The notes under the pieces were generated by a model, which had not been told where the DNA came from, did no database searches, and saw only the letters and a program-made list of their open reading frames with translations. Positions 8,236-9,543 of a DNA stretch of 12,961 nt are shown here, one piece after another. The translations under genes were made by a program, and so were the position numbers. Each line of letters opens with the position of its first letter. Within the stretch, counting starts at the first letter, position 1. This DNA comes from Planctomycetaceae bacterium (GTDB lineage: Bacteria > Planctomycetota > Planctomycetia > Planctomycetales > Planctomycetaceae). The stretch lies in contig JAJDEK010000153.1 of the NCBI GenBank assembly GCA_029259875.1, positions 1 through 12,961 on the forward strand. Reading direction: 5' to 3'.

Positions 8236-9543
8236 TCAGTGGTCGTGGTCGTGGTCGTGGTCGTGGTCGTGGTCGTGGTCGTGGTCGTGGTCGTGGTCGT
8301 GGTCGTGGTCGTGGTCGTGGTCGTGGTCGTGGGTCACATTTGCATCGTTAATAATCGGTGTATTATTCGATTTGTTGTCAATCAAAAAGGCGGCTTCTGC
8401 TGCACGATAAATGGTTCTCAGTGAAACACCTTGCTCTACTGCAATCTGTGCACACGCTTCATATTCCGGAGTGAATAGTGATTGCTGATGTTGCGTCAGA
8501 GATATTTTGCCTTCGACGTTTCCCCAGGCTGTTTTAACCGTATGTTGTTGGCGCGGCCGGGTTGTGCGTTGCAAAAGATGCCGGCGAATACCCAGTGTTT
8601 CTGTTTCCTGAAAAAGAATCGATTCCAGTTTGTCCGCTGATTCTGGTTTGCAAATGACACTGAGCAGAGTGGCGGGACGGTCTTTCTTCATCTGTATTGA
8701 AGACGAATAAACATCTAAAGCCCCCGCTTCCAAAAGTTTTTGTTTTGCATAGCCAATAATTTCTCCAGAAACATCATCAAGGTTAGTTTCTAGTAGGGTA
8801 ATGTTGTCAGTGTTACTTGTCGTTGCTAGTTCGCCTACAAAGATTCTGAGAAGATTGGCTCTCTCCGGAAACGTTTTGGTACCTGCTCCATAACCAATTT
8901 CTTCGATGGTCATTGGTGGAATCATGGAAAAACGATCAACGAGTGTCGAAATAATGGCGGCTCCCGTCGGGGTCGTTAGCTCCGCTTCAATGGGAATATC
9001 TGCGAGAGGGATTCCTTTCAATAATTCAGCTGTTCCCGGTGCTGGGACGGTACAAATTCCATGGTCAATTTTTATCTGACCGAAACCAGTGGGAATGGGA
9101 CTTGAGATAACTTGCTCTACTCCCAATAAATCAAAGCCGATTGCCACTCCCACAATATCGACAATAGAATCGATGGCGCCCACCTCATGGAAATGAACTT
9201 TATCGATTGTGGAGCCGTGAACCTTCGCTTCTGCTGAAGCGATTGCAGTAAACAGAGAGAGTGAAATTTCGTATTGCTTCGGAGTGAGTTGATCGGATTG
9301 TTTTAGGATTTTAATGATATCGCTTAAGTGGCGATGAGCGTGTTGTTCCGGATGATCAATTTGAACTGACGTTGCATGAAAGCCCCCTTTCATGGTTGAG
9401 GAAAAGGTAAGCTTCACACCAGGCAGGCCAAGCGAATCAATGCCGGCACAAATCTGCTCTGCACTCACACCGGCATCAACCAGTGCTGCCAGCGTCATAT
9501 CACCACTAATTCCAGTGGAACAATCTAAATAAGCAATCCGCAC
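8236..9543 (-). CDS. larC: LarC, nickel-pincer cofactor nickel-insertion enzyme, with poly-(His-Asp) tail
   Basis: LarC is the CTP-dependent cyclometallase that inserts nickel into the pyridinium dithiocarboxylic nucleotide, completing the nickel-pincer cofactor of lactate racemase (LarA) and relatives. The 435-residue protein shows the family blocks in order: RIAYLDCSTGISGDM (2-16), HPEQHAHRHLSDI (64-76), KVHFHEVGAIDSIVDIVG (115-132), ELTTPTGAAI (188-197), LLETNLDDVSGE (250-261), GALDVYSSSIQMKKDRPATL (274-293), and the ETETLGIRRH region (313-322). Both halves, split as LarC1/LarC2 by a frameshift in Lactobacillus plantarum, are here one continuous frame. Residues 405-435 are strictly alternating His and Asp to the last residue, probably a metal-binding extension. 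The start is a GTG placed exactly where the family begins, with GGAT eight bases upstream. No larA, larB or larE is in the window. Confidence 0.95.
   Translation of the reverse strand: MRIAYLDCSTGISGDMTLAALVDAGVSAEQICAGIDSLGLPGVKLTFSSTMKGGFHATSVQIDHPEQHAHRHLSDIIKILKQSDQLTPKQYEISLSLFTAIASAEAKVHGSTIDKVHFHEVGAIDSIVDIVGVAIGFDLLGVEQVISSPIPTGFGQIKIDHGICTVPAPGTAELLKGIPLADIPIEAELTTPTGAAIISTLVDRFSMIPPMTIEEIGYGAGTKTFPERANLLRIFVGELATTSNTDNITLLETNLDDVSGEIIGYAKQKLLEAGALDVYSSSIQMKKDRPATLLSVICKPESADKLESILFQETETLGIRRHLLQRTTRPRQQHTVKTAWGNVEGKISLTQHQQSLFTPEYEACAQIAVEQGVSLRTIYRAAEAAFLIDNKSNNTPIINDANVTHDHDHDHDHDHDHDHDHDHDHDHDHDHDHDH
8239..8331 (-). repeat. Perfect hexanucleotide tandem repeat encoding the LarC His-Asp tail
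   Basis: The plus strand reads GTGGTC repeated 15 times plus a final GTG, 93 bases with no mismatch. On the coding strand this is alternating CAC (His) and GAC (Asp). It starts directly next to the stop codon (TCA on plus, 8236-8238). All six frames through it are free of stops, so long open frames of Val, Trp-Ser or Gly-Arg on the other strand are artefacts. The six-base unit means that slippage changes tail length by two residues and never breaks the frame. Confidence 0.98.

Follow-up and report, generated by a model that had tools for sequence, protein, structure and literature searches.

A His-Asp tail of variable length on the nickel-insertion protein LarC of the Planctomycetaceae

In a bacterium of the family Planctomycetaceae, the last 31 residues of the nickel-insertion protein LarC are 16 His and 15 Asp that alternate strictly, and a His-rich tail of this H-x kind closes every LarC of the family whose C-terminus can be read. 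This tail is cautiously regarded as, on balance, a tethered arm that holds metal, mainly nickel. The window, as the whole stretch of DNA analyzed is called here, comprises 12,961 nucleotides (contig JAJDEK010000153.1 of assembly GCA_029259875.1), and the genome to which it belongs is a 74%-complete draft of 589 contigs.

The LarC protein of the window

The protein carrying the tail is a genuine LarC, as the first-pass annotation had named it. It matches the Pfam Ni_insertion model PF01969 with an E-value of 4.5e-139 and the NCBIfam models of both LarC1 and LarC2 over their curated cut-offs, and over residues 1-385, the whole fold, it can be aligned with the solved LarC 12bi (E 1.2e-84). Among Pfam and NCBIfam models, those of LarC alone match over cut-off, with no homology to UreE or HypB, and the resemblance of this protein to the latter two is, as judged from sequence, one of function only. 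The features of the gene and its protein are listed below.

8236..9543, minus strand: larC, 435 aa, one continuous frame covering LarC1 and LarC2, GTG start, TGA stop; PF01969, E 4.5e-139
8836..9333, minus strand: LarC1 domain match, residues 71-236; TIGR00299, 205.6 bits (cut-off 90)
8449..8802, minus strand: LarC2 domain match, residues 248-365; NF052512, 144.5 bits (cut-off 50)
9328..9354, minus strand: H64-P-E-Q-H-A-H-R-H72 motif, conserved; other LarCs have a long His-rich loop here
8332..8388, minus strand: linker of 19 residues (386-404) from the folded part to the tail; the 12bi match stops at residue 385
8239..8331, minus strand: C-terminal tail (HD)15H, residues 405-435, from translation of the frame
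8239..8332, minus strand: perfect hexanucleotide array (GACCAC)15.7 that codes for the tail, from Tandem Repeats Finder

PF01969 is presumably the family also called DUF111. In DUF111 genes, a frameshift has been reported in up to 39% of cases (available text of PMC3711429), and nickel insertion by LarC has been described as a CTP-dependent step (available text of PMC11796402). For testing LarC homologues, an E. coli Duet system has been employed (PMC11796402). The larC gene of the window is read in one frame, with no programmed frameshift between its LarC1 and LarC2 parts, and such a frameshift is not a requirement for membership.

A short internal cluster of His had also been pointed out, and its residues, H64, H68, H70 and H72, are correct, with H56 lying nearby as well. 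Among 52 aligned near LarCs, H64, P65 and R71 are invariant and H68, H70 and H72 are at least 90% conserved; positions H64-H72 differ in a few LarCs of the family, such as L075, L084, L091 and L095. The cluster was considered as a remnant of a lost loop, and, being conserved in the 52 near sequences, it is no obvious remnant.

On the other strand, a plus-strand frame at 8147-8410 reads WSWSWS, the antisense of the array; it is taken as a mechanical by-product, and its reading as a gene was rejected. Elsewhere in the window, a DUF447 protein lies beside a beta-RFAP synthase-family protein (4651-6261, plus strand), a pair that is presumably suggestive of genes for methanopterin-type C1 metabolism, and a degenerate 18-base tandem repeat is found within a BamA-like gene (3200-3270).

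The tail and its hexanucleotide array

Translation of 8236-9543 on the minus strand bears out the strictly alternating tail of 31 residues. The tail had been placed at 8236..8331, which is the right region and includes the stop codon TGA at 8236-8238, the codons of the tail itself occupying 8239-8331. The underlying array (8239-8332) has a period of 6, 15.7 copies and 100% matches in Tandem Repeats Finder, and the codons are uniform, all 16 His being CAC and all 15 Asp GAC. Elsewhere in the window, in ten coding stretches with the tail excluded, CAT and GAT are preferred, with CAC making up 28 of 78 His codons and GAC 57 of 193 Asp codons. Because uniformity of this degree would have a probability of about 9e-16 under independent codon choice, the array is concluded to have arisen by repeat expansion. 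In the window genome, the exact 18-base sequence (GACCAC)3 is found at the larC tail only, and in such a draft the tail itself is surer than its exact number of copies. Below the cut-off of 195, at 18.4 bits, the tail also matches the NCBIfam model PRK10019, a nickel/cobalt efflux transporter that is presumably RcnA.

A perfect DNA array is in keeping with a reading in which the tail is merely a by-product of replication slippage, whereby a short H-x-H end expands, the free C-terminus tolerates the expansion, and length and purity mean nothing. The evidence that bears on this reading comes from the comparison of relatives, in the genus and in the family.

Presence and length of the tail in the genus

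LarC was searched for in 99 genomes, the window's own included, and was found in 93 of them. The name of the genus, Gimesia, was deduced from the nearest database proteins, which include a LarC of Gimesia maris. LarC was found in 16 of the 17 genomes of the genus, the remaining one being a 76%-complete draft (G006) that gave no LarC match, and all 16 LarCs carry an (HD)n tail. Nine of these tails are in single-contig genomes, which rules out an artefact of assembly, the explanation against which the first-pass annotation had advised checking. The gene order prenyltransferase-like, larC, coiled-coil, DUF1501 is kept at 13 of the 15 other loci of the genus, and at those of G011 and G012, where the contig ends in the array, the prenyltransferase-like gene is still beside larC. 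The tail is orthologous throughout the genus.

The length of the tail is variable. At the 14 loci with a complete end, the HD runs span 17-53 residues, and cores that are 95-97% identical in DNA nevertheless carry runs of 53 and 45, 43 and 53, or 35 and 53 residues. The run of G001 amounts to 35 residues by hand count and includes one change of His to Gln. Of the 14 complete arrays, 11 have blocks of variant GAT or CAT units toward the 3' end, and the pure CAC-GAC arrays are the three of the window, G002 and G003. The wide swings in length between near-identical cores, the blocks of variant units and the His to Gln change all fit a by-product of slippage. Shorter ends occur in database proteins: P0002 and P0003, which are 88 and 85% identical to the window LarC, end in HDHDHDHDHG and HDHDHDHDHDH, and P0006 from Gimesia maris, which is named partial, ends in HDHDHDH. 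Since the contig ends inside the tail in four drafts (G011 and G012 in the genus, G036 and G058 in the family) and P0006 is partial, copy numbers in drafts are doubtful.

Within the genus, the pure array is confined to larC. The exact pattern (CACGAC)4, a search that detects pure CAC-GAC runs only, occurs in 16 of the 17 genomes, in larC and in contig-end pieces of G011 and G012 that most likely complete larC. A reversed control pattern gave 5 matches, all in G005; other hexamer arrays do occur, therefore, and this different array is again compatible with slippage as the sole cause. A 31-residue HD protein query gave matches in 10 of the 17 genomes only, and because it missed the longer LarC tails, its silence about other proteins of the genus means little.

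The tail across the family

LarC is present in 61 of the 64 genomes of the family examined, and after setting aside G033, which is cut before the C-terminus, 60 can be read into the tail. All 60 end in a His-rich H-x tail, in four cases with the contig end inside the tail. A comparison with the LarCs of related planctomycetes had been suggested by the first-pass annotation, and it reveals a tail that is common to the family and differs in composition and length, from HDHDHDHG in G051 to 31 His. The threshold of 8 His in 20 residues, which is passed by 57 of the 61 family LarCs and 106 of 120 near database proteins, misses short tails, including those of G046 and G051 and at least 10 of the 14 near database proteins below it. 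An H-x-H-x tail is absent in two of the 120, P0005 and P0069. P0004 and P0006, also below the threshold, bear the label partial, the sequence of P0004 breaking off right at the first tail His. P0005, 86% identical to the window LarC, diverges after RTVYRA, is without a tail and looks frame-shifted, owing to either a sequencing error or a real loss.

Outside the genus, the spacing of His was analyzed in 40 tails with at least 6 His, taken from 42 family loci. The gap between successive His is exactly 2 in 533 of 637 cases, and in the same tails the codons are mixed (CAC 447, CAT 230, GAC 201, GAT 194) and Asp is often replaced, the partners of His being D, S, G and R. That the alternation is kept with mixed codons and partners, and that a His-rich tail is kept in all readable LarCs of the family, is not expected of a mere by-product of slippage. 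However, 34 of the 41 family tails from outside the genus contain tandem arrays of 6 to 63 bases, so that the persistence of the alternation there can be due in part to repeat copying, and the argument from alternation is weakened accordingly. On the other hand, 6 of the tails outside the genus that have at least 6 His are free of arrays, and in these, 60 of 68 His gaps are equal to 2, which again stands against slippage as the sole cause. A survey of 93 LarC loci of the family and class (651,091 bases) gave 136 arrays, and when periods 3, 6, 9 and 12 were looked at, all 25 arrays of period 6 proved to be in LarC tails, a placement that speaks against mere slippage. Taken together, a tail whose length and purity are meaningless is rather improbable, and the pattern suggests that selection keeps the H-x alternation. 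In L079 (G019), one of the 25 period-6 arrays codes for an Asn-Asp repeat that precedes the His-rich end of the LarC tail, as if slippage like that of the HD array had made an Asn-Asp version.

Tail runs and loop runs in LarC at large

In many LarCs, a His run lies in a loop near residue 70, whereas in the window LarC the run is at the C-terminus; that homologues often have a His-rich internal segment at this very site was correctly anticipated. A total of 553 LarCs, from 171 Planctomycetota genomes, 22 named loci and 360 database proteins, were classified with three conserved segments as anchors, and 20 were left out as partial or contig-ended. At 8 His in 20 residues, the 533 full-length LarCs divide into 167 with a tail run, 130 with a loop run, none with both and 236 with neither, the last including L055, whose run is unplaced, and some short sub-threshold tails. 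At a laxer threshold of 6 His in 14, three LarCs (L018, L097 and L098) have both runs. Because the 533 hold near-duplicates and were chosen for the most part by similarity to three queries, and because the scan that gave the 22 named loci had HDHDHDHD among its patterns, these run counts are not frequencies in nature.

Besides the window's family, tail runs are seen in a second family of the class, where 6 of 12 genomes have them, and in one genome from another part of the phylum, G203. Loop runs are carried by 89 of the 120 LarCs nearest a Bacillota LarC, by 6 of the 120 nearest an alignment of five run-less LarCs, and by 25 of 75 other genomes of the phylum (3 partial). In a FastTree tree of 237 rows, from which the near database proteins were excluded and for which every fourth of the others was taken, the tail state changes approximately 6 times and the loop state 25 times, and among 5 supported independent pairs, an average of 0.3 show a difference in loop state. 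As the tail state changes only about 6 times, the mutual exclusion of tail and loop runs, though striking, is weakly independent. The first-pass annotation had supposed that the metal-binding function moved from the loop to the tail, and such a relocation is unsupported, given the few tail changes and the fact that the neighbours of tail lineages mostly have no run rather than a loop run.

Loop and tail are two alternative attachment points for a His run on LarC. The run is dispensable for the fold, and by extension presumably for catalysis, because 236 of the 533 LarCs are without it at 8 His in 20, and so is 12bi (414 residues, aligned to 407), which, unlike the window LarC, has no His-rich tail; the other structure, 6bwo, is a LarC2 piece only and is uninformative on the tail. 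In Paenibacillus filicis (L060), the LarC1 frame ends in a 61-His stretch and then stops, with no LarC2 match in that frame. This is possibly a third placement of the run; alternatively, the gene may be frame-shifted or split, the His run then marking the junction.

Nickel context and comparison with known systems

The window genome also has LarB (247.5 bits) and LarE (292.9 bits), both over cut-off, and three LarA-like genes (PF09861 matches over cut-off). In the genus, urease alpha is absent from all 17 genomes. NiFe hydrogenase large-subunit matches are found in 15 of the 17, on account of which the notion of a nickel economy of LarC alone was dropped, and HypB is over cut-off in 15 of the 17, hydrogenase and HypB being on one contig in the window genome. 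The HypB proteins of the genus, as far as six of the 15 were read, have no His run, their 5 to 9 His being scattered; between LarC and HypB, both nickel-insertion proteins, it is LarC on which the run sits.

H-x-H runs are not specific for nickel and also bind Zn, Co and Cu. The tail might accordingly be a general metal buffer or sponge that takes up zinc, copper or cobalt, or shields LarC from the wrong metal, with no special role in nickel insertion. This would agree with the HDHDHD runs that were recognized by eye on transporter-like and other ORFs of related genomes, and with a weak match of the tail to the solved DUF2796 protein 7ahw (E 0.004). However, the pure CAC-GAC array is on larC alone in the genus, and a sponge would not predict that His runs recur at a second site of LarC in distant lineages, so that this reading appears unlikely. 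By eye, the ORFs with HDHDHD runs in question (L132, L133, L134, L137 and L140) look like an RND membrane-fusion protein, ZIP-like transporters, a permease and a methyltransferase-like protein. In addition, a trigger-factor-like ORF, again by eye (L136, G017:C1 near 5888092), ends in a DHDHDHDHDHGHDHDHD tail, which recalls the SlyD-like His tails on a folding factor.

HypB, SlyD and CooJ are nickel maturation proteins with His-rich segments and with folds that differ from that of LarC. The likeness of the tail to the His-rich segments of other nickel proteins, as previously proposed, holds, and LarC falls within the class of nickel maturation proteins that bear a long low-complexity segment rich in His. 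The supposition that the His-Asp alternation is unusual does not stand, as segments of His and Asp have been reported for prokaryotic Co/Ni-binding and cobalamin proteins (available text of PMC6821194), and HDHDHD runs occur on ORFs of related genomes. In RcnA, a nickel/cobalt exporter, a His run is expanded in cable bacteria to 33-53 His (available text of PMC11247825); that run is an internal cytoplasmic loop of a membrane exporter, whereas the LarC run is a C-terminal tail.

UreE, a nickel-delivery protein, likewise has a His-rich C-terminus that is unresolved, of variable length and adds nickel capacity, and its removal lowers the Ni capacity by two per dimer (PMC13044922, in the part available); among tested tails, it is the nearest parallel to that of LarC. 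Such tails can be dispensable, because urease activation in K. aerogenes is still achieved by UreE that lacks its His tail, and according to work cited in the same text, the flexible C-terminus is required for nickel acquisition from HypA (PMC13044922). UreE is a chaperone, whereas LarC is the inserting enzyme itself, with a tail of strict His-Asp from a perfect hexamer array. As the need of UreE for its C-terminus in obtaining nickel from HypA indicates that a tail can be a hand-over site, the LarC tail could be conceived as a docking or assembly device, whose His/Asp polymer contacts LarA, LarE or a nickel donor, or mediates metal-linked oligomerisation, rather than holding nickel. Yet its length varies several-fold and no non-repeat end motif is conserved, which is unusual for a specific docking peptide, and this role is deemed very improbable.

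His-rich nickel segments, H+D composition included, are already known (PMC6821194 and PMC11247825, both available in part). A His-rich LarC is not mentioned in the available parts of PMC11796402, PMC11247825, PMC6821194, PMC3711429, PMC13044922, PMC11770544 and PMC7583248, and the nickel source of LarC is unstated in the literature searched, which is likewise partial and leaves subscription journals mostly uncovered. Within that literature, the family-wide LarC tail, its complementarity with the loop run and the length-variable in-frame array were not encountered.

Proposed explanation and implications

The preferred reading is that of a flexible arm that binds metal and is tethered to the enzyme inserting nickel. 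The alternating His would offer many equivalent H-x-H sites, with Asp as a possible second ligand and as charge, and the arm would maintain a high concentration of Ni(II), and with less selectivity of other divalent ions, close to LarC. In this way, nickel would be caught and retained next to the enzyme that places it in the cofactor, perhaps with supply to the active site, and a larger capacity may be of benefit. Because distant LarCs have loop runs, a second placement of a tethered His run on the same protein lends support to the arm. Slippage of the 6-base unit, which stays in frame, would add or remove sites with the gene intact, while selection would maintain the H-x-H-x pattern.

A further and doubtful extension is that the array acts as an evolutionary dial, in which slippage tunes the nickel-holding capacity of LarC to the nickel supply across lineages, perhaps even strains. 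If this were true, a coding microsatellite would set the metal stoichiometry of an enzyme. The occurrence of a His run at the loop or at the tail in different lineages makes the nickel supply of LarC a testable question. The Gimesia tail, being long, pure and terminal, can be deleted or shortened with the fold untouched, and the runs of related species, which naturally range from 17 to 53 residues, constitute a ready-made titration series.
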